Origin: a virus
Length of the DNA stretch: 41,643 nt
Virus record (IMG/VR): IMGVR_UViG_3300050821_012623
Coordinates: 1 to 41,643 of that record
Strand: one strand, 5' to 3'
Of the stretch, positions 6,366-32,330 are shown piece after piece. Under the pieces are notes generated by a model that had not been told where the DNA came from, did not search any database, and worked only from the letters and a program-made list of their open reading frames with translations. The position numbers and the translations under genes were made by a program. Each line of letters starts with the position of its first letter. Position 1 is the stretch's first letter.

Positions 6366-6580
6366 TTTTCAGATCCAAGAAGGCCATTGAGAATGAGCTG
6401 GCGGAAGCTCTTCGAGCCCTTCATGGTTTGGTTACTGCGCACAATGGTTACCAACATGGCATGGGGCCGTGCATCTGCGCGGCGCACGAAGAAGCTCGGC
6501 GAGTCTTGGGCATTACTCGCGCCGATGAGTCGTCTCGCCGCGCGCAACCGGAGGGCAAGGAGGGCAAGCATGTCGGCTGA
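6362..6580 (+). CDS. Unknown small protein (72 aa)
   Basis: ATG overlaps the previous stop. Helical N-terminus (SKKAIENELAEALRALHGLV), then HNGYQHGMGPCICAAHEEAR, with CIC and four His that could bind metal. The tail is charged and probably disordered. It overlaps the methyltransferase start, whose AAGGAGG lies in this gene. Unknown function. Confidence 0.65.
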   Translation: MIFRSKKAIENELAEALRALHGLVTAHNGYQHGMGPCICAAHEEARRVLGITRADESSRRAQPEGKEGKHVG

Positions 6581-7115
6581 GCAGCTCGACATTGCGCTTC
6601 CGCCAGTGCTCGACGCCTGCTGCGGTCCCCGAATGTTCTGGTTCGACAGCCACGACCGCCGAGCTCTGTTCATCGACAAGCGCCAAGAGACGCACCCGAT
6701 GGACCTCGGTACCGAGTCCACGCGCGGCCGCGCCCCGGCGGTGATCGCGCCGGACATTGTCGCAGACTTCACGGCGATGCCATTCGCCGATGAGTCCTTC
6801 TACCTGGTGGTGTTCGATCCGCCGCACATCATGCGCCATCGCGGAGGACTCAGCGGCTGTTTCTCGAAGAAGTACGGAATGCTGCCCAGCAAGTGGACCG
6901 AGGTATTGCGCGCTGGGTTTTCGGAATGCTTCCGAGTTCTGAAGCCCCATGGGACGCTGATCTTCAAGTGGGCCGACACGAATATCCCCGTCTCTCACGT
7001 GCTGATGACCACGCCGCACAAACCTCTGTTCGGCACGCGAGTCGGTCGGCATACCCATTGGTATACCTTCATGAAGGAACCGACACAGGTTTCCATAGAC
7101 GGACGTACACCATGA
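6570..7115 (+). CDS. DNA methyltransferase-like SAM enzyme
   Basis: 181 residues from ATG 6570, with AAGGAGG six bases upstream. Order of motifs: LDACCGPRMFWFD at about 10-22 (SAM-binding motif, as in F.GxG), LFIDKR near 30, DFTAMPFADESFYLVVFDPPH at about 60-80 containing the catalytic-type DPPH (compare DPPY/DPPF of amino-methyltransferases), and FRVLKPHGTLIFKWAD near 125. Small phage methyltransferases of this kind are thought to modify adenine or cytosine amino groups. There is no restriction partner nearby, so protection of phage DNA or an epigenetic role is likely. Substrate base and site cannot be read from the sequence. Confidence 0.85.
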   Translation: MSAEQLDIALPPVLDACCGPRMFWFDSHDRRALFIDKRQETHPMDLGTESTRGRAPAVIAPDIVADFTAMPFADESFYLVVFDPPHIMRHRGGLSGCFSKKYGMLPSKWTEVLRAGFSECFRVLKPHGTLIFKWADTNIPVSHVLMTTPHKPLFGTRVGRHTHWYTFMKEPTQVSIDGRTP

Positions 7116-17717: not shown

Positions 17718-18035
17718 CTATCTCATCCCGCCGCCCATCTGGGTCAACGCGGTCGCGAGTTGCTGGGGATTTGACCCCTGTTGAGGCATCCCGCCGGCCT
17801 GGGGGGGCGGCATACCGGGCGGGGGCGCGCCCTGGGGAAGCTGGCCCTGCGTCATGCCGGGACGCATCTGCGCCGCGCCCGGATTGGCATAGCGGGGCTG
17901 CATGTTGTTGATGGGTGCTGATCCCATCACAGGATAGGACGCTCCCGGAATCCCGCTAGCGGTGCCTGCCGGTGGAGTGTACTGGGGCGGCCTCGCGCCG
18001 CCACCCATCGGTAGTCGAGTATTGTTTACGCCCAT
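17718..18035 (-). CDS. Pro/Gly/Gln-rich protein (105 aa)
   Basis: ATG 18035-18033 preceded by GAGGTGGGG. Low complexity: MGVNNTRLPMGGGARPPQYT, GQLPQGAPPPGMPPPQAGGM. Probably disordered. It overlaps the last 80 bases of the acetyltransferase gene. Composition matches the other Pro/Gln-rich proteins of the internal-virion block. Confidence 0.6.
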   Translation of the reverse strand: MGVNNTRLPMGGGARPPQYTPPAGTASGIPGASYPVMGSAPINNMQPRYANPGAAQMRPGMTQGQLPQGAPPPGMPPPQAGGMPQQGSNPQQLATALTQMGGGMR

Positions 18036-18468
18036 GATTACGCCCCACCTCAAGCCAACGGCATTCCTCGCGGAGCATGCCATAAATGATCAGGTCATCC
18101 CCATCCGGCAGGATGTCTCGCACCCGCCCTTCCAGCACAAACCCCAGATGTTCGTCGAAATGCTGCGCCTCGAGATTCTTGGCCGGTACTAGCCCCGTCA
18201 CCCGGCGGCATCCCAGTTGTTCGAAGGGATATCGAAAACCCTCGCCGATGAAGGCCCGGCAGCACCAGCGCTTCCCGGGTAGGGCCGCGACATGCATATG
18301 GATATCGGTTTTGGTGTAATTCTGGTACACCACGCCCGCCAGCAACGCGCCGGTCTGGTCGGCCAATCCGATCGCTGTATAAGGCGTCGAGCCGAACTCG
18401 AAGATCGGCATGCGGGCCGCCACCCAGCGGGCCACGCGTTCATCCTGGTTGCCGATGATGCGTCTCAT
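17956..18468 (-). CDS. GNAT-family N-acetyltransferase
   Basis: 170 residues. The core reads GLADQTGALLAGVVYQNYTK (strand beta-2/3), GKRWCCRAFIGEGFRYPFEQ (helix after beta-4; the usual acetyl-CoA loop is degenerate), CRRVTGLVPAKNLEAQHFDE and HLGFVLEGRVRDILPDGDDL (the GF..EG strand typical of RimJ/RimL-type GNATs). A GNAT in the tail region is common in podovirus-like phages and may acetylate a virion or host protein. Stop/start overlaps couple it to the glycine-rich protein upstream. The last 30 residues run into the next gene and may not be conserved. Confidence 0.8.
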   Translation of the reverse strand: MRRIIGNQDERVARWVAARMPIFEFGSTPYTAIGLADQTGALLAGVVYQNYTKTDIHMHVAALPGKRWCCRAFIGEGFRYPFEQLGCRRVTGLVPAKNLEAQHFDEHLGFVLEGRVRDILPDGDDLIIYGMLREECRWLEVGRNHGRKQYSTTDGWRREAAPVHSTGRHR

Positions 18469-20210: not shown

Positions 20211-22095
20211 AAAACAGGCCTCCTGAGCGGAAAATATAATTGGTGCTCTGCCACTTTGCCGTGAGATTCGCCACGTTGATCCGCAGCTCCATGGATCCCG
20301 CATAGCCTGAAGCGGCAAGTCCGATCCATGGCTTGACGACCTGCTCGTTATCGCTCCAACCGGAGACGTTCCACATCGCCACGTTCCAGATCGCGGAATT
20401 TCCAGCCGACAATGGCACTACATTGGTCGCAGCAGTAGTGTCGAAATCCACCAGCATGTTGATGGAAAGGGTGAGGCTTCCCGTGACCTGGAAGAAGGGC
20501 TGACACTGACTCCAGATTTTCTGCATCTCGCGTTCGCCCATGTAGGAGAACGCGGGTTTCGCGGTCACGATGTAGGGATTGGCGTCATCCGCCGTCGTGG
20601 TATCACATTGCGCGACCGAATTCACCGTTCCATAGTAGATACTCTGCCCCGCCGTCTCGAAGCAGATCGCATTCCACGGGGAGTTGTAGCGGCCGAAGGT
20701 GCACCAGGCCCCGGAGATGGTGTTCTGCACATACTGGTAACTGGCGAGATTCGCCGAGGTGGGCACATTGAGAATGATCTTGGTACCCATCGGATACAAC
20801 ACAACCTGCCAGCCGAAAATACCCTGGTAGGAACTCGCATCCGTGTTGATATCCGCGCGAATTTTGTCCGTGATCGCAATCAGCGGCTGGGATCGGTCAG
20901 CAACCAATGCTTTGGAAAGGGGAGTGAGGCCATCCGCGCACAATATTGCCGCATCCGATCCCAGTTTGACGTTGCCCCGCCGTCCGAGTGCCAGGGGATT
21001 GCCGATCCGGAAGTGCCCCGCCTCATACCACGTGGCGACCTGGGCCGGATCGTAGCCCTGATACATGACCACCTCTCCCTGGGTGGAGATGAAGGCGAGA
21101 TAATCGTTGATCCCGCCTGCGTTATCCACGCTGTTGGTCGCCATCATGGCCAGCGAACCTCCGAGATTGAAGTTCGGCCCCATCGGCAACAGAGTCAATT
21201 GACCGGCGAATACGTTCTGCGGCAGGTAATATACGTTCATCGAATTCGCCTGCACGAACCATAGACGCGACTTGTAACGGATTACCTGACTCAATGAGGT
21301 GAGCGGGGATGGACCTCCGGTGAGCGCATAGGGAAAAGGAGAGGACAGAATCCCCCCTGAGGTCCAGGCACTGAACCCTGAGGAATTGACATTCAACGTC
21401 ACGGTCCAAGCCCCCGAGGAACCCCCGATGTTGGTCACCTTGGCATTGATGTTGTTGATCTGTGTCATGCCGGCGGCCCCGGTCACACCCACCGTCTCTC
21501 CGATGGCGAACGGGTTGCTACCTGCCACGCTGTTGACCGTCACCACGGCGGAGGCGGCAATGGAGATACCACTGATGGTCGCTGAAATCGGGGACGTGAT
21601 GGGCCACCAGGTGGTGCCGTCGAAGATGAGCGGATTGTCCGCCCCGTTCACCAGCATCAGAATTTCAGCCGAACCGGTCCCGAATTGCAGCCAGTCGTAT
21701 TGGGTATTGGTGATCTGCTGGACCGTGTTACTTCCGCTCCCGACGACCGCCGCCCCGACCGGCCCCCCGCCTGCATTGTCCACCCGGTAGATCGATCCCA
21801 CGCCGGCATTGATCACGCCCGCATACAGTTGATTGGCCCCGGCCAGCGAGTTATAGGCTGCGACGGTCTGACAAGCTCCGGTGAAGGTGGCGAGCGTGAC
21901 TTTCCCGCGCCGCAGCTCCACCCAGGAAGGCTGGGGAAACCAGTTGTCCAACACGATGGCGTCCGTCTCGGGCATGTTGGCCAAAGCATCGCGTGCATTC
22001 AGCCCCCCGATGGGCGCGGCCATGACATAGGCCTGCGCAGCCGGCTGCGCGGCCTGTTGTTTGCGAAGCAACCGCGTGACGGAGGTGCGCGGCAT
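20203..22095 (-). CDS. Tail nozzle/tubular protein B-like
   Basis: 630 residues, start sharing TAATG with the HNH gene. N-terminal MAAPIGGLNARDALANMPET at about 25-44, with LDNWFPQPSWVELRRGKVT following. This is the hallmark opening of podovirus tail nozzle proteins (T7 gp12/P22 gp10 class: P.GG.N..D....MP...A..L.N..P....V..R.G). The remainder is a beta-propeller-like series of strands (LWFVQANSMNVYYLPQNVF, FISTQGEVVMYQGYDP, IIWSQCQ-type repeats). It forms the distal part of the short tail beneath the adaptor. Confidence 0.85.
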   Translation of the reverse strand: MPRTSVTRLLRKQQAAQPAAQAYVMAAPIGGLNARDALANMPETDAIVLDNWFPQPSWVELRRGKVTLATFTGACQTVAAYNSLAGANQLYAGVINAGVGSIYRVDNAGGGPVGAAVVGSGSNTVQQITNTQYDWLQFGTGSAEILMLVNGADNPLIFDGTTWWPITSPISATISGISIAASAVVTVNSVAGSNPFAIGETVGVTGAAGMTQINNINAKVTNIGGSSGAWTVTLNVNSSGFSAWTSGGILSSPFPYALTGGPSPLTSLSQVIRYKSRLWFVQANSMNVYYLPQNVFAGQLTLLPMGPNFNLGGSLAMMATNSVDNAGGINDYLAFISTQGEVVMYQGYDPAQVATWYEAGHFRIGNPLALGRRGNVKLGSDAAILCADGLTPLSKALVADRSQPLIAITDKIRADINTDASSYQGIFGWQVVLYPMGTKIILNVPTSANLASYQYVQNTISGAWCTFGRYNSPWNAICFETAGQSIYYGTVNSVAQCDTTTADDANPYIVTAKPAFSYMGEREMQKIWSQCQPFFQVTGSLTLSINMLVDFDTTAATNVVPLSAGNSAIWNVAMWNVSGWSDNEQVVKPWIGLAASGYAGSMELRINVANLTAKWQSTNYIFRSGGLFYG

Positions 22096-22634
22096 TAGCG
22101 TTCCAAGGCGGCTTTGCGGTAGTTCGCGCGTGAGGCTTCGCGATTGGCTTCCTTATCGACAATGCCTCGATTGAACATGCGGTAATAGGTTGAGCGCCCG
22201 ATATCGAGCGCCCTGCAGATCTCCTCAATACTGGTCCCTACTTGCCTCATTTCACGAACCTTGGCTTCCATTTCCGGGGTTTGCACGAAGTTGTAGCGGT
22301 GGGACCACCGGGAAGTTCGATCCACCGCATCCCGGTCGGCCATGTTTGAAGCTTGGTCGCCGGGATATAGATGGTCGGGATTGACGCATCGCTCATTGCT
22401 GCATTCCCGTTTGTGGCAGAGCATTTTTCCTTCGGGGATTGGGCCACGAAACAGTTCCCATGACACTCGTGCGGCGATCTGAGGGCGGCCATCCTTCCAA
22501 AAATGCGGGCGGCAGCGCGAATCGCCAGAGCCTTTGTTCGCATAAGTGCCATTCCAATCCCAACAGCCATTCTCAAGTTTCTGCACCTTCGACATGAATC
22601 GATCGCGGACTGAAGGCCAAATTCTGGCAGCCAT
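22095..22634 (-). CDS. HNH endonuclease with C-terminal HTH (homing type)
   Basis: 179 residues, ATG with AGGAG upstream. N-terminus RFMSKVQKLENGCWDWNGTY is the standard start of phage HNH-3 proteins. The catalytic region holds MLCHKRECSNERCVNPDHLY (HNH with CxNPxHL zinc/metal residues). The C-terminal part (TSIEEICRALDIGRSTYYRM) is a helix-turn-helix for DNA binding. It is inserted between the adaptor and nozzle genes, has its own 70-base upstream gap and lower GC, and is probably a mobile gene. Confidence 0.85.
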   Translation of the reverse strand: MAARIWPSVRDRFMSKVQKLENGCWDWNGTYANKGSGDSRCRPHFWKDGRPQIAARVSWELFRGPIPEGKMLCHKRECSNERCVNPDHLYPGDQASNMADRDAVDRTSRWSHRYNFVQTPEMEAKVREMRQVGTSIEEICRALDIGRSTYYRMFNRGIVDKEANREASRANYRKAALER

Positions 22635-22704: not shown

Positions 22705-23679
22705 CTACGATCCGAAACCAGAATCAGGCACGTTCTGGCTGTTCAACAGTCTGATGCCACTGGCGCGCGCATTGAGTGGCAGGTTGCGCGCCATTGTCTG
22801 CCGTCCTGCGATGCGGTCGAGTTTGTCGGAAAACTCAACATGCTCATCCGCATAGGCCATACCGATGGCCTTCAACACGCGCCATTTGAGCGACAGCGTC
22901 ACGAGATCCTCATCGATCAGACAGACATCACTGTCGTTCTGGAAGCTGGTCTGTACCGCAACCGTGGGCGCGCTGCCCAAGGCGATGAAGTTCTTCGACA
23001 TATACTCCATAACGATCAGGTCGCTGATCGGGCTCGCCTGTCCGGTGGGTACATAGGGGGCCGGATTGATGTAGATCTGATTGTTCATGAGCCGGTAACG
23101 TAGTCGAGGACCGACCGGGGAGATGCCGGACTTCAACACCTGCCATTCCTGCGCATCCACCGGACCCAGCAGTTGCCAGCGGAAGTTTCGGTCCCAGCCC
23201 GTCTGGGGGATGAAGTGGTCCAGATCCGTAGGTTGCGCGTAGGCTTCCTGGCCGAAGGCAAGACTCGAATCGATGCCGGTCCCGTTCGCCTGGGTGACGT
23301 TGGAATTCTGGCTCATTGTGACAGTACCGGCACCGGCGTTCACCGCCGTCACCATCATGTCATTCACTGCGAATTTGGAAGCGATCTGCCATCCGACTTG
23401 CACACCAGCGAGATTGGTCCCGGTGATGTTGGTGATTACATTGGAGTTGTAGGTAAAGGTCCCGGTGAACGGCCCGATACCGAGCAGGTTGAAGAGGAAC
23501 TGTTGCCGCAGAGCAGGCCAGTAATCGGCCGCCAAGGGCTCACTGCGCAGTTCGCTGGCAGCCCGGTTGGCGAGGTAATAGCCCTTGATGACATTGGCAT
23601 CGGAATTGCCGATGACACCAGCCGGCGGCGGTAAGCCGATCTCACCAAATGCCTGCTGGAGGATGGTGAGCAACGACAT
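22705..23679 (-). CDS. Tail adaptor (tail tubular protein A-like)
   Basis: 324 residues. MSLLTILQQAFGEIGLPPPA opens it, with ANVIKGYYLANRAASELRSE and YWPALRQQFLF following, the helical pattern of podovirus adaptor proteins (gp11/gp4 class). A beta-rich insertion (TGTFTYNSNVITNITGTNL) sits in the middle. The final 60 residues (LSLKWRVLKAIGMAYADEHV, FSDKLDRIAGRQTMARNLPL) are typical of the family's C-terminal helix bundle. It connects portal and nozzle. Gene order adaptor-nozzle-fibre is as expected. Confidence 0.8.
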   Translation of the reverse strand: MSLLTILQQAFGEIGLPPPAGVIGNSDANVIKGYYLANRAASELRSEPLAADYWPALRQQFLFNLLGIGPFTGTFTYNSNVITNITGTNLAGVQVGWQIASKFAVNDMMVTAVNAGAGTVTMSQNSNVTQANGTGIDSSLAFGQEAYAQPTDLDHFIPQTGWDRNFRWQLLGPVDAQEWQVLKSGISPVGPRLRYRLMNNQIYINPAPYVPTGQASPISDLIVMEYMSKNFIALGSAPTVAVQTSFQNDSDVCLIDEDLVTLSLKWRVLKAIGMAYADEHVEFSDKLDRIAGRQTMARNLPLNARASGIRLLNSQNVPDSGFGS

Positions 23680-23680
23680 T

Positions 23681-24523
23681 TCAGGTCTCCGCGGTTTCCG
23701 CCTGTGCGGTGATGGCCTGGGTACGCTTGCTGGTCTTCACGCTTGCCGACTTCAGCTTCTGCGGCTGAGGGGTGAAGTTGGTATTCGCGGTCGAATGGCT
23801 CGTTTGCATGCCCTGCGCGAACTGGGCTTGCATCTGGGCGATCGTGGACTGAAGTTGCTTGATCTGCTCCTCCTGCAAGTTCGACCTCTCCTCAGCCCGC
23901 GCAGCTTTGGCCTGTTCGCTCGCTACGATCTTATTGCGCTGGCGCTCATCCAGAGCCGCTTTGGCCAGATCCCGGTATTTGCGGCCGCCCATGATGGAGG
24001 AGGCATTGTTGTCCGAAAGAGCAGCGAGCGCTTCAACCGTGGGAATGTTGAGCATCTTGAGCGACTCAGCGTAGGAGCGCGTCACCACACCCCATTCCTC
24101 GATCGGCCAGCCGTCATCGGCCTTTTCGCCTTTGCGCATGAACCGGCCCCATGCCGCGGGATACTTCGCAGCATCCGAAGGGTCACCGTTCGCGCACTGC
24201 TCGAGCACGCTCCACGTGGTGTGATACTCGCCCGAGTCCGGATCGATCGCGGTGTCGTAATCGATGCCGGCGGCGAGCGTATCCCACATGGTCTTGGAGT
24301 TGCCCGGTGCCACGATCCGTACCCAGATCCGATCCTGAAAGATGGGGAATCCCATGGACTGAGTCAGATACTCCATGGCGTAGGGCTTGATGTAGAACTC
24401 CACGATGAGCTCACCATCCAGGCCCGCACCGCCTTCGCCCGGCTTGCCATAAAAGACCCGGCTGGCATCGCTTTTCGGGGACTCCAGCATGCGGGGCGGG
24501 GCGAATGAAGTGGCTTCGTTCAT
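23681..24523 (-). CDS. Structural protein of unknown class (280 aa)
   Basis: Start overlaps the stop of the tri-domain enzyme (ATGA). N-terminal domain, about 1-150, includes ELIVEFYIKPYAMEYLTQSM, DYDTAIDPDSGEYHTTWSVL and KYPAAWGRFMRKGEKADDGW. The C-terminal 100 residues are a long coiled coil (EQAKAARAEERSNLQEEQIK, QLQSTIAQMQAQFAQGM) with a basic Thr/Ala tail. The pairing with the head and adaptor genes suggests a head-completion or internal protein. No family I can name. Confidence 0.65.
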   Translation of the reverse strand: MNEATSFAPPRMLESPKSDASRVFYGKPGEGGAGLDGELIVEFYIKPYAMEYLTQSMGFPIFQDRIWVRIVAPGNSKTMWDTLAAGIDYDTAIDPDSGEYHTTWSVLEQCANGDPSDAAKYPAAWGRFMRKGEKADDGWPIEEWGVVTRSYAESLKMLNIPTVEALAALSDNNASSIMGGRKYRDLAKAALDERQRNKIVASEQAKAARAEERSNLQEEQIKQLQSTIAQMQAQFAQGMQTSHSTANTNFTPQPQKLKSASVKTSKRTQAITAQAETAET

Positions 24524-26460
24524 GACAGATCCTTGATGGCTTTGCGCCAGCAGTAATTGGCTCCGACCTCGACCGGTCCCAGTACTTCTTCCACCGCGCG
24601 CTTCACGCCCCAGGTGGGATAGCCGGGATTCTCATAGTCGTGGCCGGAAATGAATCCGGTATGTTTGACCTTCGGTAACCAGGCAAGCACATCGGCCCGA
24701 CAGGCCTCGTAGGTGTGATTCGCATCGATGAAGACGAAGTCGAGACTGCCGTCCGGCACTTCCCGAGCGGCTTCGACCGAATCCTTCACTAGAATCCGCG
24801 CACGTTCCCCGGCAAAGGCCGTGGCGGCCCGGGTGGCCCCCAGGTAATAGTCCTGCTGGGTCTGGCTGAGGTTGGCATGGAAGTCATCCCCACCATCGCC
24901 CTGTTTCCAGGAATCCACCATGTAGAGCGTTAGATCCGGTTTCTGAAGCAGCCGGCAGGAGAGCTCACCGGCGAATACACCGATCTCGGCACCTACCGGC
25001 GCTTCCATACCCTCAAGCCAGGTCGAGAGCTGAATCCAGCGTTCGTCTACATCCCGCGGCTTCATGAGGCTGGCAAGATAGGGAATCAGCCCTTCCCCAT
25101 AAACGCGCAACACGCATCCGCAGGAAACTAGGACAGGCGCCATTTCCTTAAACTCTTCGGCCTGCGTAATCATCCAGGGGGCGCAGCGGAATTTCTCGCC
25201 CGCCATGCTCACTTCGAGGACTCTTTCCCCCTCGTTGAGTCGTTGAGGGTAAGCGTGATGGGTATCCGCATAACAGGAGTCGAAGCCGAACAGGCGTAAG
25301 TGTCGATGGCCCAATAAGTAGGCGAGCGACAGCGCTTTCATGCCCACCGTGGTCCCGCCGCCGAGACTTATCGCCTGGGGATGCTCACGCTCGATCAGGC
25401 TCTGGTAGCACGTCATGGCGGCATGCCAGCACACGAGGTCATTACCGGCGGCTTTCAGCACGGCCGGATGGCACTGGGAAGCGTAGTACTTGATGCAGTG
25501 GTCGGCGGGCACGAAGTCCAGATTTCCCCACCGTGCATCGAGCATCACGTGCGCATCGGCCTGGATGCCGTGCTCTTTTAGGTAGGCGTAGGCGTTGTTC
25601 AGCGCGTAGACCACGGCACCGGATAGTTGCATGCCGCGGATATAGAATAGATTCTCTTTGAGGCTCGGGCCACCGCCGACAATCACTGCGGTACGCGTAT
25701 CGGTGCCGCCCTTGAGCCATTGGCAGGCCAGCTTCAGCGCCGATCGCACATGATCATGCAAGGTCGCATCGTCGGTATTGGCCTGCACGATGAATTCTGT
25801 GCCGGAGCCACCGCCGACCTTCCACACCTCGGGCACCCAGCCCTCAATCACCTCATGCGGGCGGGGGTGACCATGGAAGAAGACGACCGACGTGTTTTTC
25901 GGAATGCCATGGCGGCAATCCACCTTGTAGCTGCGCAGCCGGCCCGGATAGAGGTCCTGGAGGATAGCAGCCGTTTCCCATGCGGGATGTTCCGCCAAGA
26001 TGGCCAACTCGATCACTTCCTGATCACCGCCGCTCAGCCGGCGGTCTCGCCAGTCATCCCAGATGAAATTGCACTTCCCTGCTTCCCAAGCCATTACCCC
26101 CGAACCAAGTCCACCTGGTCGGTAGACATCCCGCAGCATGGCGAAGTCCACCGAGCACATGGCCAATGCATCCAGCGGACCGGTAATCACCGTGTCGAGA
26201 TCGAAATAAAGGACGCGATCACCTTCCGGGAAAGCATCCTTTGAGAAGAGATAGAGCTTGGCCCACCAGCCCCGGTCCGAGAGGTCTTTCGGCACCTCCC
26301 GGACCTTGATGCCTGGATCCAGGCCCGTCGCATCGTCAGTGAAGCAGACGAACTGCCCCGGAAAACCGGCCTGCAGGTTGCGCACCACGCCATCATAAAG
26401 CCGATTGACGTAATCCGCCCCATAGAGCGTGCCGACCTTGACGCATGCGACGTTGAGCAC
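24520..26460 (-). CDS. Tri-domain enzyme: glycosyltransferase / DUF115 (Maf-like) / SAM methyltransferase
   Basis: 646 residues, GTG start directly after the previous stop with GGAAGGGG upstream. Domain 1 (1-225): GT-A glycosyltransferase with WAKLYLFSKDAFPEGDRVLY, the metal-binding FDLDT (D87, D89) and FHGHPRP at 195-201, like GT8-type sequences. Domain 2 (about 235-470): TAVIVGGGPSLKENL at 257-271, VVYALNNAYAYL, ADAHVMLDAR, GGGTTVGMKALSLAYLLGHR and LRLFGFDSCYADTHH, the pattern of DUF115/MptE-like domains found in Maf flagellin-glycosylation proteins. Domain 3 (485-646): GAEIGVFAGELS (SAM motif I), YMVDSWKQGD, FIDANHTYE and GFISGHDYE, a class I methyltransferase. It lies between head and adaptor genes, so it likely glycosylates (and O-methylates sugars on) a virion or host-surface target; that is inference. 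Confidence 0.8.
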   Translation of the reverse strand: MLNVACVKVGTLYGADYVNRLYDGVVRNLQAGFPGQFVCFTDDATGLDPGIKVREVPKDLSDRGWWAKLYLFSKDAFPEGDRVLYFDLDTVITGPLDALAMCSVDFAMLRDVYRPGGLGSGVMAWEAGKCNFIWDDWRDRRLSGGDQEVIELAILAEHPAWETAAILQDLYPGRLRSYKVDCRHGIPKNTSVVFFHGHPRPHEVIEGWVPEVWKVGGGSGTEFIVQANTDDATLHDHVRSALKLACQWLKGGTDTRTAVIVGGGPSLKENLFYIRGMQLSGAVVYALNNAYAYLKEHGIQADAHVMLDARWGNLDFVPADHCIKYYASQCHPAVLKAAGNDLVCWHAAMTCYQSLIEREHPQAISLGGGTTVGMKALSLAYLLGHRHLRLFGFDSCYADTHHAYPQRLNEGERVLEVSMAGEKFRCAPWMITQAEEFKEMAPVLVSCGCVLRVYGEGLIPYLASLMKPRDVDERWIQLSTWLEGMEAPVGAEIGVFAGELSCRLLQKPDLTLYMVDSWKQGDGGDDFHANLSQTQQDYYLGATRAATAFAGERARILVKDSVEAAREVPDGSLDFVFIDANHTYEACRADVLAWLPKVKHTGFISGHDYENPGYPTWGVKRAVEEVLGPVEVGANYCWRKAIKDLS

Positions 26461-27249
26461 TTACGCCCCTTCCAGCTGACCGCGATTGGCGTAGTACACC
26501 AGAGCCAGACTCTGCGTACTGGTCGTGGTACCCGTTGCGGCCCGGGCGCCCAGGATCTGCGCACCGACCGAGCTCACTACCTTGAACCGGCCCGCCGTAC
26601 CCGATACGTACGCCGCCACGCCAGGCGTGACCTGCACTGCGGTCTTCAGCGTCCAGGCCCGCCCCGAGAGCTGGTACCAAGCCACCGTCTGCTGGTTCGC
26701 CTGGGAGGCCAGTCCCGAGCCGTCATACAGTTTGGTGATCGGGTAGACCGTGCCCTGGGTGAGGGACTGCGCTGTCGCACCCACCGCCGCGCTGGAGACC
26801 GCCACGGCCACCGGGAAGCCGGTGTTCTTGGTGGTGGGTAGCGTGGTGATCAGGTATGTCGCATCCCAGATGACCAGGGTGCCCACAGGGAGCGCATTGG
26901 AGACCGGATTGCGCAGGGCGATGAATTCCGCCCAGCCCAGCGTCGGTTCCCAGGCCGAAATGATCTGGCCCGGCGAAACGGTGAAGATCGGCGCCGGCAG
27001 TACCGGACTCGTGACGGTTCCCGCCGTGGTCGCGGCCGACTCAGGTTTCTGGAAGACCGTATTGAATCCGGCATACGGACCGGGCATATCCGCCCAGACG
27101 TTGCCGATATCGTAGTCGCCCAGCTGGTTGTTCTGCGCAACCCAGTTGTAGGCAACACCATTGGTGACCGTCGTCGGAAACCCCGGCGGCACATAGGTCT
27201 GTGCGGCAAAGGGCGAGACGGGAGTGGCTTTTACCGTGACAATTCCCAT
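26461..27249 (-). CDS. Head-associated/decoration protein candidate
   Basis: 262 residues, immediately downstream of the coat gene (two bases). Predominantly beta-sheet: MGIVTVKATPVSPFAAQTYV, TPGVAAYVSGTAGRFKVVSS, QSLALVYYANRGQLEGA, with Thr/Val/Ala-rich strands. No known motif. Position and composition suggest a capsid decoration or head-completion protein; direct evidence is lacking. It is a plausible substrate for the glycosyltransferase encoded next to it. Confidence 0.6.
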   Translation of the reverse strand: MGIVTVKATPVSPFAAQTYVPPGFPTTVTNGVAYNWVAQNNQLGDYDIGNVWADMPGPYAGFNTVFQKPESAATTAGTVTSPVLPAPIFTVSPGQIISAWEPTLGWAEFIALRNPVSNALPVGTLVIWDATYLITTLPTTKNTGFPVAVAVSSAAVGATAQSLTQGTVYPITKLYDGSGLASQANQQTVAWYQLSGRAWTLKTAVQVTPGVAAYVSGTAGRFKVVSSVGAQILGARAATGTTTSTQSLALVYYANRGQLEGA

Positions 27250-27251
27250 GA

Positions 27252-28235
27252 TTACGCTCCCAGCAAGCCCTGAAGGAACCGGTTGCTCGTGGTCATGTTG
27301 CCGGCAAACCCGACGAGCTTGACCATCGCATCCTGGTTGACCGCGAAACGCTCATCCCCGAGCGGGGCGAAGTTCCGATCCTGGTGCGGGCGGAAGAACA
27401 GGTACTTACTGTTCAGGAAGAACATGGTGTTCGTGGGCGCACCGCCCCCGAACCCGCCATCCAGCACCACGTCGGCGTTCATGTACTTGAGCGTCTGGAA
27501 TCCCAGCTCCGCCAGGTCCTCATCACCCACGCGCTGCAGGGCCTGCATGGACTCGAGGTAGTACCGGTAGAAGTTGTTATCCGCGACGATCAGATCCGGC
27601 GCATCCGCACCACGGACCAACTGCAGGTACACCCGGTTCATGTAGGTCTGGATCGTGGCCGTGCTGACTGCCGCGCCTCCAGTCGTGACCCCGGAGAAGA
27701 ATACGTTGCGCCAGAAGGCCCAGACCGAAGGATCGATACCCCCTACGATACCGGAAGACGGTGTCGCGCTGATGAGCAGCTGCAATCCGCCGATCTGGCG
27801 GCCCCCATCCGCAGTGCCGTTGGAGTAGATGTCCAGGGCCACGTTGTTGGTGAGGGTCTGCTCGGCGTTCTCGATACGCCCTTCCAGCAGATCGATGATG
27901 GCCTCTTCGCCCGAGTTCTGCAGCATCTCAAGACCGGAGATCGATACCGCCACAGCAGCCTGAGCATAGTTGTACTCGGCTCCTGTGAAGACATCGGACG
28001 GCGAGATGTTGAGGACCTCATACCCGGAATAGCGCTTGTAGGTACCGTTCTCCTGGTAGTTGAGTTCCTGAACGATCGTGCGACCTCCACTGACCGGTTT
28101 GACCCGGCCGCGCGCTCGGAGGCGATAGAGCAATGCGTTGTTCTTGGTAACGTTGTCGGCCAGCTTCCCTGTGCGGTTGCGCAGGGTGGTGGTCACGATT
28201 TCCGTTACCGTGGCTGATGGATTGATCAGAGCCAT
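27252..28235 (-). CDS. Major capsid (coat) protein
   Basis: 327 residues. N-terminal helix MALINPSATVTEIVTTTLRN, then the basic arm RARGRVKPVSGGRTIVQELN and YKRYSGYEVLNISPSDVFTG, the extended-strand region of HK97-fold coats. Later DLIVADNNFYRYYLESMQAL and KYMNADVVLDGGFGGGAPTN (the P-domain strands and loop) and FLNSKYLFFRPHQDRNFAPL. No protease gene or N-terminal propeptide is seen, so maturation is probably scaffold-based as in P22-like phages. It follows the scaffold gene by 18 bases and should be the most abundant late product. Confidence 0.8.
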   Translation of the reverse strand: MALINPSATVTEIVTTTLRNRTGKLADNVTKNNALLYRLRARGRVKPVSGGRTIVQELNYQENGTYKRYSGYEVLNISPSDVFTGAEYNYAQAAVAVSISGLEMLQNSGEEAIIDLLEGRIENAEQTLTNNVALDIYSNGTADGGRQIGGLQLLISATPSSGIVGGIDPSVWAFWRNVFFSGVTTGGAAVSTATIQTYMNRVYLQLVRGADAPDLIVADNNFYRYYLESMQALQRVGDEDLAELGFQTLKYMNADVVLDGGFGGGAPTNTMFFLNSKYLFFRPHQDRNFAPLGDERFAVNQDAMVKLVGFAGNMTTSNRFLQGLLGA

Positions 28236-28253: not shown

Positions 28254-29414
28254 TTAAACCCGGCTGCTGGCTTCTGCCATGGCAGCCCGTATTTCATCAC
28301 GAAGCGTCAGATCCTTGCCGTTCGGCACCGGAGCGTTGCCCGGGCCAGTTCGCAAAGAACCTGCTTTGCGACGGGCAGCTTCTGCCCTGCGTCGCTTGTC
28401 CTCTTCCACCTTTCGGGCTTGCGTTTCCGCCTGCGCGATCAGCTTGGAGGTTTCGGGATGAGCCCTGACGGCGAGTTGATAGGCTTCTTCCAACGTAGAT
28501 GCGTTCCCTGCGCCAAGGAGGGCAGCCATGAGGCTGTTCACATGGTCGAAGTAGGGATAGGCCGGCTGGCCGTTCGCATCCATCTTGGAGCGGAATGTCT
28601 CAATCTCACTGTTGACTGCTGTCATCTCCGCACGTTCACGCTCCTGGGCCTGTCGTCTCTGCTCAGCCTGAAACGCTTCGTTGACCTGCCGTTGCACGAG
28701 CTGGTCAATGGGAATGTTGGGCTGCTGAGGCTGACCCTGAGCGGGAGCGCCGGCCTGTTGGCCGATCAAACTGCGTAGATCCACGCCATTGGCGTTGGCG
28801 ATCTGTCGAATGGTGTTGGCCCGGACATTCATGTCGGGGCTGTTCAACTGGCTGATGATCCCTAGGGATTCACGCCAGAGATCGACAGGGGACAAACCGC
28901 GCGCCTGAATGAGCGGCGCATGCTGGTTCGACACCTGCATGAAATTGTTGCCGATGAGCCGCACTTCGTCCTGCGCACTGATGGCGCGGGCGACATCGCG
29001 TTCACGGCGATCGACGATATGCTGGACTTCGGGAGGGACCTTGGCCCACAGGGCTTTCTCTTCAGGCTTCCAGGTGGCTGGAGCGGGAAGGGCTACAGGC
29101 GCTATTGCGCCAGTATTTCCCGGGGAGGCTGATGCGTCTGTTCGAACGCCTTCTGGAACCGGCGCAGTCGTTCCAGCTATTCCGGTGTCAGCTCGTGCGG
29201 CGAACTTTCCATCTGGACCCCGGGATCGGGTTCCATCGGTTCCACCGGCGGCATCGGTTCGCTCGCCCCGGTCTGATAACACTCGCTCGTGCCCAGATAC
29301 ATTTTCATTCTCCTGCCGTGACTGAACCTCCTCGAGGGAGGATTGCAACTGCTCCCGCAAGGTCGGTTCGGGTTTGGTGTCATCTGCAACGACTTCTTCT
29401 TCAACGGCGCTCAA
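28254..29414 (-). CDS. Scaffolding protein
   Basis: 386 residues; the open frame starts with TTG at 29414-29412 preceded by GGGGGT, since there is no early ATG. Acidic, Gln-rich, mainly helical: LREQLQSSLEEVQSRQENEN, TWKPEEKALWAKVPPEVQHI (the W..EEKA.W...PPEVQ motif common in podovirus scaffolds), VDRRERDVARAISAQDEVRL, then long charged helices ending with VEEDKRRRAEAARRK. It precedes the coat gene, as expected for a protein that organises the procapsid and leaves before packaging. Confidence 0.75.
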   Translation of the reverse strand: MSAVEEEVVADDTKPEPTLREQLQSSLEEVQSRQENENVSGHERVLSDRGERTDAAGGTDGTRSRGPDGKFAARADTGIAGTTAPVPEGVRTDASASPGNTGAIAPVALPAPATWKPEEKALWAKVPPEVQHIVDRRERDVARAISAQDEVRLIGNNFMQVSNQHAPLIQARGLSPVDLWRESLGIISQLNSPDMNVRANTIRQIANANGVDLRSLIGQQAGAPAQGQPQQPNIPIDQLVQRQVNEAFQAEQRRQAQERERAEMTAVNSEIETFRSKMDANGQPAYPYFDHVNSLMAALLGAGNASTLEEAYQLAVRAHPETSKLIAQAETQARKVEEDKRRRAEAARRKAGSLRTGPGNAPVPNGKDLTLRDEIRAAMAEASSRV

Positions 29415-29775
29415 TGAGACCCCCGCGTTTCATATCCGGCATCGTATGCTGAGCAATAGCGGCTTTCAATGATTCCCGCACATCCTTGCGCGTCGTGGTC
29501 TTACGGAATTGCTTCGTATCCTTGACCGGCGCGTCGCCCAGCTCGATCAGCCGGTTCCGCTTGAGGAACTGCTTGTGCTGCACGCGGCTGGTGATCGGTT
29601 TGCCCGCCATGTCACCGGCCCTGGCGATGTAGGGCTTGATGTCTCCGAAGCCCACGCAGGGGGATATGACCCGCGTCACCGGATGAGGGTGCTCGGGAGG
29701 CACTTTATAGTCCGCCATGGAGCGCCAGACCTCGATCGGGCCGCACTGTTCACAGTGGTATTCGTAGGTTGGCAC
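29401..29775 (-). CDS. FmdB-like zinc-ribbon protein
   Basis: 124 residues starting MPTYEYHCEQCGPIEVWRSM, the standard opening of the FmdB family. Only the first CxxC pair is present; the second pair is replaced by VISPCVGFGD, so a complete zinc ribbon may not form. The rest is basic and polar (RVQHKQFLKRNRLIELGDAP, DVRESLKAAIAQHTMPDM). FmdB-type genes between portal and scaffold are seen in other phages with unknown role. Overlaps the scaffold start by 14 bases. Confidence 0.75.
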   Translation of the reverse strand: MPTYEYHCEQCGPIEVWRSMADYKVPPEHPHPVTRVISPCVGFGDIKPYIARAGDMAGKPITSRVQHKQFLKRNRLIELGDAPVKDTKQFRKTTTRKDVRESLKAAIAQHTMPDMKRGGLIERR

Positions 29776-32330
29776 TACTTGCTCGCATGCCCGTTGGGCT
29801 TGGCCTTGGCCATTTTACCCTCATGCTCGCGCTGTTTGTCGCCTTCCTGTGACTGATGCTGCAAGTCCTGCTCATGCGTGGCGGCCTGGTGGTCGAGGTC
29901 CATCCGTCCTTTGGTCAGCTGCACATGCGCATCCATCTGCGCGATGTAGATCTTCGCTTGGGTCTCGTACTGCACGCGCTGCGCATCGAACTGATTCTTC
30001 ATTTCCTGGATCTGCATGTCACTCGCAGCCTTCAATTGGGCCTTATGCGCCTCCAGATTGGCCTGCATCTGCAAGTCATGGTCGGCGCGCGTCTGCTCCA
30101 TCTGGTTCTCGATGGCTTCCTGCTGCGCTTCCGCCTGCTGTTTGGCCTGTGCAATCTGAGCATCCAGCTTGGCCTGCTGGGCGGCGATAGTGAGTTTGAC
30201 CTGGCCCTCCGCCATGGCCTTCTGGACCTCGGGCGGCGGACCTTTGGGCTGGCTCGCGGCCTTCTGCAGCGCATCCATGGCGTCTTCGAAAGCCTGCTCG
30301 ATCGGCCGCGCGCTCTTGAAGCTGCGGATCGCGAACATCATCAGTTCGCCAAGCATCGGAATGATCTCGGGCGCCGTGCTGCCGGCCATGACGGCCTTGT
30401 CGAGGAACCCCCCCACCGCGGTGACGAGCTCAACCCGAGAGTTCTTCTCGGCATCATCGTCCATCCGCACGGTGGAATCGGTCTCGATGTCGAGCCGGAA
30501 CTCACGGTGAACAGGGTTCTGGAGCAGGTTTTCCACCTCTTCCCAGGTTGGCAGCTCGAGCAGTGCCAGTTTGTCCGGGCTGGGCGGGGCCTGGCCGGCG
30601 GCGGGAGCGCCCGGGGTGGGGGCAGCTCCCGGGTGCATCATCCCCGGGGCAGCTTGCCCCTGAGGTGACTGAGCCCCCCCGCCAGCCATTGCCATTTGAG
30701 GAGGTGCAGCCCCCGGAGGATTTCCTCCTTGCGGTGAGGACGGGGCGGCCTGTTGAGCCTGAGCAGCGGCCTGTTGCTGGAGGGCAAGCTGCTGCTGGAG
30801 CTGCTGCTTTTCAGCGTTGGTGAGGAGCTTGACACCACTGATCTGTTTGAGGGTTTCGATGTCATAACCGGCGACGATCTCCCCCACGATGCGGATCACA
30901 TCGCGGGCAAAGCGTTGAACCTCGAACTGCGCATCCTGAATCCGCAGGATGTGAAATGAGCCCTTCATCTCCTGAGCGGTCGCGGTCTCGGTCGGATCAC
31001 TCATGCCACGCACGATGTCGGGGATGCCGGTCAGCTGATACACATCCTCGATCAACTCCTTGCGCTGTTCCCGCAGGAAACCGAGCGTCTCGGCGATCTC
31101 CTTCATGGGCAGGAGTTCGAACGAGCCGGCCAAACCGCCTTTGTCCTTCGCCGCCGCCCACCCCGATATCGGGACTAACTGGTTCTCCACCCCTTCAGAT
31201 AGAAGTCGATCAAGCCCCTCGGCACTCGTGTCGCGCACACCCGCAACCTTGAGCGCCTTCGTAATCTGCACAATACGCGTGGAAAGTTCGTCGATCTCAT
31301 TCGCCTGATCTTGGTAGAACGTGTAGTTCGGCGTCGGCAACAGCTCATCACTGAGCGTGTTGGCCATGAGAGGACGTGGGGCGGGAAAGAAGCGATGCAA
31401 GCCCAGATCATCATCACGCTCATCCAACAGCTTGTGAAAGTTCTTCACCAGCCAATAGCGGCAGCGTTTGTGCTTGTCATGGATCTCATAAACCACCGCT
31501 TTCTTGCGGGTGATCTTGATCTGCGTGTCAGTAAGGTTCTTCGGTGACCAGTCGAGCGGGATCTGGAGGATTTCCTCCTCAGTCAGATTGGTGAATCGTT
31601 CTCGCAACTCGTCCCGGTCCATGTACGCGCGCTTCCAGAGCAACCGGACTTCCTGCCAGGTGCGCGCCCAGCTCCATCCACAATCCTCCCAGGAGACGTA
31701 ATCGACAATCGTCTCCTCATACTTCAGCTGCTCTTCTTCGACTTCATCTTCTTCGTCAGACGTGATGTCGGAGCCTTCGGACTTGGTTTCGGCGTTCTGC
31801 TTGCCCTCTTGCGCGCCTTCTTCCTTGGCCGCGTCGAGTTCGGGTTTGTGGAAATGCGGCTCATACCGACACCACACCATGGCGAGTCCAGGCAGTTCGT
31901 AGTCCTGGATCGCAAGGCGCATCACATAGAAGAAGTCATTGACGTTGTCTAACGTGAATTCGATTGATCTCTCGAGGATCTCCGCTGCAGTACGACCGAT
32001 AGGATCTCGATCTTTGTATCGTCGCTCGACGATGGGCTTCGGGTTTCGGGCGTAGAGAGCAGGTAGTCGAGTCTGGACATTGGCCCATAGGATGTTATAG
32101 CGAGTAATCGCATCTTCCCTCGGGCTTCTAACGTCGCGGTACTTCTTGAGGATCTTTCGCCCGCGTCTGAGGAATTTGTCGAACAATCGTTCATGGGTAT
32201 CAATCTCGTCTTTGAGCCAGCCCACGATGGGCATGAGCTGCAGGCCAGGATGGGGGTTGACAGTGCCGCCCTGCTCCTCGCGCTTCTTGCGCTTGGCGGG
32301 CGAGCCATCGGGCATCAGAATACGGGCCAT
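29775..32330 (-). CDS. Portal protein with long Gln-rich C-terminal extension
   Basis: 851 residues. Residues 1-560 match the podovirus portal architecture: LKDEIDTHERLFDKFLRRGR, RYNILWANVQTRLPALYARN, FTLDNVNDFFYVMRLAIQDY, TAKDKGGLAGSFELLPMKEI-like stem region, VYQLTGIPDIVRGMSDPTET and QEMKGSFHILRIQDAQFEVQ. The final 290 residues include a Pro/Gln/Ala linker and an extended coiled coil (AQQAKLDAQIAQAKQQAEAQ, QEMKNQFDAQRVQYETQAKI) comparable to the P22 portal barrel. It is the vertex through which DNA enters and leaves. Located between the terminase side and the scaffold. Confidence 0.85.
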   Translation of the reverse strand: MARILMPDGSPAKRKKREEQGGTVNPHPGLQLMPIVGWLKDEIDTHERLFDKFLRRGRKILKKYRDVRSPREDAITRYNILWANVQTRLPALYARNPKPIVERRYKDRDPIGRTAAEILERSIEFTLDNVNDFFYVMRLAIQDYELPGLAMVWCRYEPHFHKPELDAAKEEGAQEGKQNAETKSEGSDITSDEEDEVEEEQLKYEETIVDYVSWEDCGWSWARTWQEVRLLWKRAYMDRDELRERFTNLTEEEILQIPLDWSPKNLTDTQIKITRKKAVVYEIHDKHKRCRYWLVKNFHKLLDERDDDLGLHRFFPAPRPLMANTLSDELLPTPNYTFYQDQANEIDELSTRIVQITKALKVAGVRDTSAEGLDRLLSEGVENQLVPISGWAAAKDKGGLAGSFELLPMKEIAETLGFLREQRKELIEDVYQLTGIPDIVRGMSDPTETATAQEMKGSFHILRIQDAQFEVQRFARDVIRIVGEIVAGYDIETLKQISGVKLLTNAEKQQLQQQLALQQQAAAQAQQAAPSSPQGGNPPGAAPPQMAMAGGGAQSPQGQAAPGMMHPGAAPTPGAPAAGQAPPSPDKLALLELPTWEEVENLLQNPVHREFRLDIETDSTVRMDDDAEKNSRVELVTAVGGFLDKAVMAGSTAPEIIPMLGELMMFAIRSFKSARPIEQAFEDAMDALQKAASQPKGPPPEVQKAMAEGQVKLTIAAQQAKLDAQIAQAKQQAEAQQEAIENQMEQTRADHDLQMQANLEAHKAQLKAASDMQIQEMKNQFDAQRVQYETQAKIYIAQMDAHVQLTKGRMDLDHQAATHEQDLQHQSQEGDKQREHEGKMAKAKPNGHASK

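Follow-up and report, generated by a model that had tools for sequence, protein, structure and literature searches.

The window analysed here, the whole 41,643-nucleotide stretch of DNA of IMG/VR virus record IMGVR_UViG_3300050821_012623, belongs to a short-tailed (podovirus-type) bacterial virus of the Mx8-like capsid lineage, and among its virion genes it carries an open reading frame (ORF) for a protein of 646 amino acids (aa) that joins a GT8-like glycosyltransferase (GT) domain, a DUF115 (MptE-like) domain resembling the central domain of the Maf glycosyltransferases, and a methyltransferase domain that would use S-adenosylmethionine (SAM). The best reading, to which we give a probability of about two in three, is that this tri-domain protein is a virion-glycosylation enzyme, with the capsid decoration protein encoded directly upstream as the most likely target. 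Modification of a virion protein had already been suggested in an earlier note made from the letters of the DNA alone, and as far as sequence comparison can tell its support is now strong: the module (the enzyme or its separate parts) occupies a fixed capsid-side site in a diverse phage lineage, and one relative also carries a pseudaminic-acid pathway.

It is noted that the earlier note had placed on one 646-residue protein a GT-A glycosyltransferase with DLD (aa 87-89) and FHGHPRP, a Maf-like DUF115 domain with GGGPSL (aa 262-267) and a SAM methyltransferase with EIGVFAGE and FIDANHTYE, to be checked by a profile search of each domain and by structure prediction of the whole chain. Both checks were run, and all three domain assignments hold; the motifs are in place, with FHGHPRP at aa 195-201. 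For the first domain, whose GT8-like GT-A part spans about aa 1-216, PHROG_1962 ('glycosyltransferase') matches aa 7-214 with E = 3.6e-33, Foldseek finds the GT-A fold of the GT8 proteins Gat1 (6mw5), glycogenin and GlyE, and phmmer gives E = 0.02 against 6mw5. In an alignment of 19 relatives, FDLDT is the consensus at the DLD motif, with DLD in 18 of the 19 rows and GLD in the remaining one (L020; L numbers denote our loci), while FHGxPRPH is invariant. The usual form of the GT8 C-terminal His motif is HxxGxxKPW; FHGHPRPH differs from this form and is what we take to be its probable counterpart. GlyE of S. pneumoniae, Gat1/Skp1 and glycogenin extend protein glycans and, like PmgQ of phage P1 and HdmD of phage P7, have the GT-A fold in common with this domain, all of them being single-domain proteins, unlike the phage enzyme. 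Note also that pmgQ, listed in P1 under a 'putative morphogenetic function', encodes a homologue with 33% identity across the GT domain; the P1 virion paper makes no mention of PmgQ.

For the C-terminal domain, PF13578 (Methyltransf_24) matches aa 492-609 with 65.8 bits (cut-off 26.3; E = 7.6e-18), and EIGVF.G is conserved in the 19 relatives. Its fold neighbours are mostly sugar O-methyltransferases (CalS11, MycF, SpnH, NovP and MeT1 share its fold, at 15-20% identity), by which the domain is a predicted sugar O-methyltransferase.

The central domain matches PF01973 at aa 255-399 with 76.7 bits (cut-off 34.6; E = 2.5e-21). A profile made from 23 phage DUF115 sequences and run against the PDB gave Maf (5mu5) at 2.8e-15, MptE (8sd5) at 1.4e-4 and the sialyltransferases Cst-I/II at 0.0045-0.03 across the LFGxDS...HAY block, so that the LFGFDS motif of the enzyme aligns with Maf and, at profile range, with Cst-II. 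The Maf domain itself is described as being structurally like Cst-II (PMC11339370). The AlphaFold2 model of the enzyme, built on the 19-row alignment, has a mean predicted local distance difference test (pLDDT) score of 85.6 and a predicted template modelling (pTM) score of 0.48, its single domains being well predicted. With this model, the best Foldseek match in the PDB is 5mu5, the Magnetospirillum Maf glycosyltransferase (E = 1.4e-8), followed by GlyE, glycogenin and Gat1 and also by MeT1, CalS11, MycF, SpnH and NovP, each match being assigned to its part of the query by its fold.

Thus, the enzyme has in common with the Maf proteins of Magnetospirillum AMB-1, Clostridium and Campylobacter the central MAF_flag10/PF01973 domain, its fold and the GxGPS and LFGxD blocks. 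It is nevertheless not a Maf, because the N- and C-terminal Maf domains are absent and the NCBIfam model FlagModPseD, which has a cut-off of 670, scores 25.9 bits and matches at 255-412 only; in their stead the GT8-like and methyltransferase domains are fused, and the gene is phage-encoded next to capsid genes, with no flagellin. Hence the Maf-like character proposed earlier holds for the domain and not for the protein as a whole.

Two other readings of these domains can be weighed here. The first is that the enzyme serves hypermodification of the phage DNA, by glycosylating a modified base. Phage glycosyltransferases that act on DNA are common, according to work cited in PMC12619734, but the matches of DUF115 are to Maf, MptE and Cst-II and not to DNA glucosyltransferases, those of the methyltransferase are to sugar O-methyltransferases, and the genes scanned, which include part of the early region, show no partner that would hydroxylate or deaminate a base; we regard this reading as very improbable. 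The second, that DUF115 acts like the archaeal MptE, a 6-hydroxymethylpterin diphosphokinase, in a phage metabolic gene, agrees with the Pfam name and with the profile match to 8sd5. It is barely credible to us, for Maf is far closer both by profile and as the top fold match, and DUF115 is fused to, or stands beside, glycosyl- and sugar methyltransferases at the capsid site. It should be mentioned that the 'MptE-like' proteins recorded from uncultured Caudovirales phages (A0A6J5PVH5 is one) are long and match the AlphaFold2 model of the enzyme, the two best with 28-37% identity; they bear the Pfam name only, with no proposed function, and a literature search on DUF115 or MptE-like proteins in phage glycosylation returned nothing relevant among the papers searched.

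The ORF is more than a product of chance, because full-length homologues with 44-83% identity were found (besides partial relatives), the ratio of nonsynonymous to synonymous polymorphism (pN/pS) is 0.17-0.37, and the catalytic-type motifs are invariant or almost so in the 19 relatives. The enzyme is under purifying selection by this ratio. Its translation is coupled at both ends: the TAA of the upstream gene is directly followed by the GTG start at 26460 (GGGGCGTAAGTG), and the stop at 24520-24522 overlaps the start of the next gene in ATGA. The capsid, portal, terminase and tail genes form one minus-strand series, with the order major capsid, decoration, enzyme and tail genes, in agreement with the location between coat-associated and adaptor-side genes that had been noted before. 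A scan for promoters and terminators gave nothing beyond chance.

The same site is used across the capsid lineage. In relatives with capsid identities of about 42-97%, the capsid gene is followed by the decoration gene, the module, the homologue of the downstream gene 23681-24523 and the homologue of the tail gene, with local gaps or extra genes. To avoid choosing loci by the module, we used a sample drawn by the capsid (the best 80 loci by capsid similarity, obtained with one peptide pattern and with some redundancy). In this sample, DUF115 is present in 21 of the 58 loci that span the capsid to the tail gene, all of the DUF115 ORFs (27/27) lie within the capsid-tail interval, and the median interval is 3.6 kilobases (kb) with DUF115 and 1.5 kb without it. 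When whole records, many of them fragments, were searched with PF01973, every module record matched (36/36, with 38 matches, 1-2 per record), and none of the 37 records lacking the domain at the site had it elsewhere. The module is absent from the site in the isolated phages ppBjS10J-1, Mx8, Mx9, BUCT555 and Mwe-JY13 of the same capsid lineage. Among annotated phages no full-length relative was found, only the GT or the methyltransferase domain being matched, separately, and among plasmids no locus covers most of the enzyme, the best rows matching the GT domain. Among the 80 loci retained from bacterial genomes, GT stands together with DUF115 at the phage site in only three contigs of metagenome-assembled genomes; in another contig (L245) the two are neighbouring genes with no capsid gene, and the remaining loci have GT alone.

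This location bears on a further reading, namely that the enzyme modifies a surface glycan of the host, which was the second option of the earlier note, for receptor masking or superinfection exclusion, and not the virion. Phage glycosyltransferases that alter the host O-antigen are well known; GT8 enzymes, transferases of the Kdo (3-deoxy-D-manno-oct-2-ulosonic acid) and sialic type and sugar methylases are typical of lipopolysaccharide and capsule synthesis, and the DUF115 of one relative (L029) weakly resembles WaaZ. However, the gene, coupled at its start and its stop, lies in a late position with the capsid and decoration genes on one side and the tail genes on the other, this site does not vary within the lineage, and neither the enzyme nor the site-adjacent genes examined resemble gtrA-type membrane partners, although no specific search for one was made. 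The host-glycan reading fits less well and is, in our estimate, unlikely.

The evidence for the target comes from the gene directly upstream. The product of 26461-27249 has no family match, and its AlphaFold2 model has a mean pLDDT of 60 (about 80 in the core). By Foldseek this model resembles capsid decoration proteins of tailed phages, those of cyanophage Pam3 (8hdt_G, E = 1e-4), T1, TW1 (5wk1_K, a capsid stabilising protein), FCWL1 and Sf11. From this fold and the place beside the capsid gene, we assign it with moderate confidence, given the pLDDT of 60, as a capsid decoration protein. Since it folds like decoration proteins, the enzyme gene follows the gene of a predicted capsid-surface protein. 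Alternatively, the target may be a protein of the tail or of adsorption and not the capsid shell: the other neighbours of the enzyme are the gene 23681-24523 and a tail protein, and mycobacteriophage enzymes are reported to modify the tail tube besides the capsid (PMC11600133, PMC12619734). Against this, the decoration gene is directly upstream and in relatives generally lies between the capsid gene and the module; adjacency carries little weight in either direction, and the enzyme may act on both targets. We consider an exclusive action on the tail to be quite unlikely.

While the site is fixed, its content is exchanged. The architecture GT-DUF115-Methyltransf_24 occurs at the site in the window and about ten others, and in other loci GT-DUF115 bears an FkbM-type Methyltransf_21 at the C-terminal position that Methyltransf_24 holds, i.e., two unrelated methyltransferase families at one C-terminus. 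Further arrangements are GT-DUF115 with FkbM as a gene of its own after it (L111), DUF115 flanked on either side by Methyltransf_23/25-type domains (some loci), a GT2-like domain plus GT-DUF115 (L029), the reversed order DUF115-GT (L047, L076), DUF115 and GT as separate genes (L051) and Methyltransf_24, DUF115 and GT as three genes (L172). A capsid tree with 72 rows requires a minimum of 13 changes in the presence of DUF115, 11 in GT and 8 in the type of methyltransferase, counts that are illustrative, the tree being a quick one and the sample partly chosen by module. The five-row clade of the window, with capsids about 86-96% identical to its own, holds both methyltransferase types. Compared with L089, the enzyme has 60% identity while the capsid has 98%, the decoration protein 81%, the tail protein 75% and the product of 28254-29414 54%; thus the enzyme has changed more quickly than most neighbouring proteins, though not more than 28254-29414. 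At intact sites no GT is found apart from DUF115, but some sites have DUF115 and no GT, by which DUF115 looks to be the core, protein-modifying part.

In two loci without DUF115 (L120:7055-8443 and L124:3440-4876, capsid-tree neighbours of L135, described below), the capsid-tail site holds a protein of tetratricopeptide repeats (TPR) with a GT9-like C-terminus, the TPR part of which resembles OGT/SPINDLY. Its domain plan, compared by description, is like that of Caulobacter FlmG, a TPR plus GT-B protein that puts pseudaminic acid on flagellins (PMC7591256). With the window enzyme FlmG would share the proposed task of O-glycosylating, in the cytoplasm, a surface protein that forms multimers, but its fold is unrelated and no FlmG-like plan is present in the window.

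A link to the sugar is given by the relative L135, a contig of 66 kb that has a pair of DUF115 genes at the site and genes for tail proteins, ribonucleotide reductase, DNA polymerase and primase. NeuB and a CMP-sugar synthetase (CMP, cytidine monophosphate) are encoded on it as well. Its operon encodes PseB (6e-109), a PseC-like fragment, PseI (7e-98), a WbuX/N-acetyl sugar amidotransferase (3.8e-83), a WbuZ/HisF2-like protein, a cytidylyltransferase and TIGR03587 (2.1e-39), a pseudaminic acid biosynthesis-associated methylase, with PseB and PseI slightly under the curated cut-offs and the amidotransferase and the methylase over theirs. Because the operon is flanked by a baseplate-type gene and a phrog_1909 gene, a phage genome is favoured over a host flank. 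An apparent pseudaminic-acid operon on a phage contig is recorded at L251:5467-13772 (about 53.5-61.8 kb on contig IMGVR_UViG_3300025905_000003), with an acetamidino-type amidotransferase, a Pse-associated methylase and a PseC-like ORF that is a fragment (about 70 residues match).

For the activity, the donor, the order of the steps, the acceptor and the benefit we propose the following. The enzyme would be made late, together with the capsid proteins. As the core, DUF115 would take a nonulosonic-acid-type sugar (of the pseudaminic, legionaminic, sialic or Kdo class) from its CMP form and attach it to Ser/Thr in a protein of the capsid surface. By the adjacency of its gene the decoration protein is the most likely acceptor, and failing that the major capsid protein or a protein of the tail. 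Another sugar, supplied by a nucleotide-sugar donor, would be added, or placed first, by the GT8-like domain, and O-methylation by the methyltransferase at the C-terminus would cap the glycan, so that the particle surface may be masked or altered.

Several results weigh against the virion-glycosylation reading. The Pfam model Glyco_transf_8 scores 12 bits, under its cut-off of 24.3; with the pTM given above, the mutual packing of the domains is not predicted. The Ser/Thr content of the decoration protein shows no difference between phages with and without the module (p = 0.26), so that Ser/Thr enrichment gives no sign of glycosylation. Co-location ties the enzyme to late expression and to virion genes, not to an acceptor. 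The pathway occurs in only 1 of the 36 module records, most of which are fragments, and the window has no match to NeuB or to a CMP-sugar synthetase. Having no nucleotide-sugar pathway, the window phage, like others, would need a donor from the host. According to PMC11339370, the Maf of C. botulinum accepts N-acetylneuraminic acid (Neu5Ac) or Kdo when its native sugar is absent, and therefore host CMP-Kdo is a possible donor by analogy.

Precedents are found in the cluster O (Corndog-type) mycobacteriophages, with O-methyltransferase and glycosyltransferase genes inside the virion operon (PMC4351075), and in Che8; the virion operon of the window likewise encodes a GT-like domain and a predicted O-methyltransferase domain. 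The mycobacteriophage enzymes are reported to modify the capsid and the tail tube (PMC11600133, PMC12619734). By contrast, those cassettes consist of separate genes between portal and protease in another phage group with other hosts, and no Maf-type domain is described in these three papers. Relative to them, the Maf-type core, the fixed site and the modularity appear to be new, and the strongest of the new points are that the site beside the capsid genes is fixed, that parts are swapped there and that there is a link to pseudaminic acid. The paper on the phiGT1/Mx8 lineage mentions neither glycosylation nor decoration proteins.

More tentatively, and at what we judge to be somewhat less than even odds, the Mx8-like podoviruses, as a widespread lineage, may coat their capsids with O-methylated nonulosonic (sialic-like) acid glycans by Maf-type enzymes, with the cassette, at its single fixed place beside the capsid genes, as a fast-changing 'surface serotype' locus and with at least one phage having its own pseudaminic-acid pathway. 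Capsid glycosylation of tailed phages is known by experiment mainly from mycobacteriophages. If the proposal is true, it would be common and exchangeable in another large phage group, with a predictable genome address, and flagellin-type (nonulosonic acid) chemistry would be in use on virions. This would also explain many function-less 'MptE-like' phage proteins and make testable why particles wear sialic-like sugars, be it for stability, matrix adhesion or recognition by bacterial or animal defences.

Table 1. Positions in the window of the enzyme, its domains and motifs, and neighbouring virion genes.
Feature	Position	Strand	Basis
Tri-domain GT8-like / DUF115 (Maf central domain-like) / SAM methyltransferase protein	24520..26460	minus	ORF; Pfam, PHROGs, NCBIfam; AlphaFold2; Foldseek
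Domain 1 (aa 1-224), GT-A fold, GT8-like glycosyltransferase	25789..26460	minus	phrog_1962, Foldseek, phmmer
DLD (aa 87-89), DxD-type metal/nucleotide-sugar motif	26194..26202	minus	alignment of relatives
FHGHPRPH (aa 195-202), probable counterpart of GT8 C-terminal His motif	25855..25878	minus	alignment of relatives
Domain 2 (aa 225-466), DUF115/MptE-like, Maf central-domain fold	25063..25788	minus	PF01973, profile vs PDB, Foldseek
GGGPSL (aa 262-267), conserved DUF115 loop	25660..25677	minus	two alignments
HHAYPQ (aa 401-406), after LFGFDS motif	25243..25260	minus	alignment, profile vs PDB
Domain 3 (aa 470-646), class I SAM methyltransferase, Methyltransf_24	24523..25053	minus	PF13578, Foldseek
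EIGVFAGE (aa 492-499), SAM-binding loop	24964..24987	minus	alignment of relatives
FIDANHTYE (aa 577-585), conserved acidic/His methyltransferase motif	24706..24732	minus	alignment of relatives
Predicted capsid decoration (cement) protein, 262 aa, favoured glycosylation target	26461..27249	minus	AlphaFold2 model, Foldseek
Major capsid protein (Mx8-like lineage)	27252..28235	minus	phrog_9953, 1.3e-125
Downstream gene, start overlaps enzyme stop (ATGA), conserved beside site	23681..24523	minus	phrog_20268, 2e-6; synteny
Tail protein, right border of site in relatives	22705..23679	minus	phrog_6013, 1.5e-39; synteny
Portal protein, same operon	29775..32330	minus	phrog_12082, 2.8e-173

The major capsid protein (Table 1) has 60% identity to that of Bradyrhizobium phage ppBjS10J-1 and 49% to those of Mx8/Mx9. 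In some relatives its gene is interrupted: a group I intron (Rfam RF00028, 65 bits) lies at L019:2840-3090 between two major capsid gene pieces, and at L018:405-2372, L023:3092-4936 and L165:5917-7925 the gene is in pieces with interruptions of about 0.4-1 kb, for which Rfam gave no intron match at the gathering threshold. In the window, an HNH endonuclease-like ORF (22095-22634) lies between the tail genes 22705 and 20203 and is not seen there in L002, and a DNA methyltransferase (phrog_954, 1.2e-64) is encoded at 6387-7112 on the opposite, plus strand. Finally, a GNAT-type acetyltransferase homologue at 17956-18468 stands in the virion gene series and is retained in most relatives, where it bears the annotation GNAT in Bradyrhizobium phage ppBjS10J-1 and phage BUCT555, with Mx8 p53 noted as a potential holin; its product is possibly a second virion-modifying enzyme.

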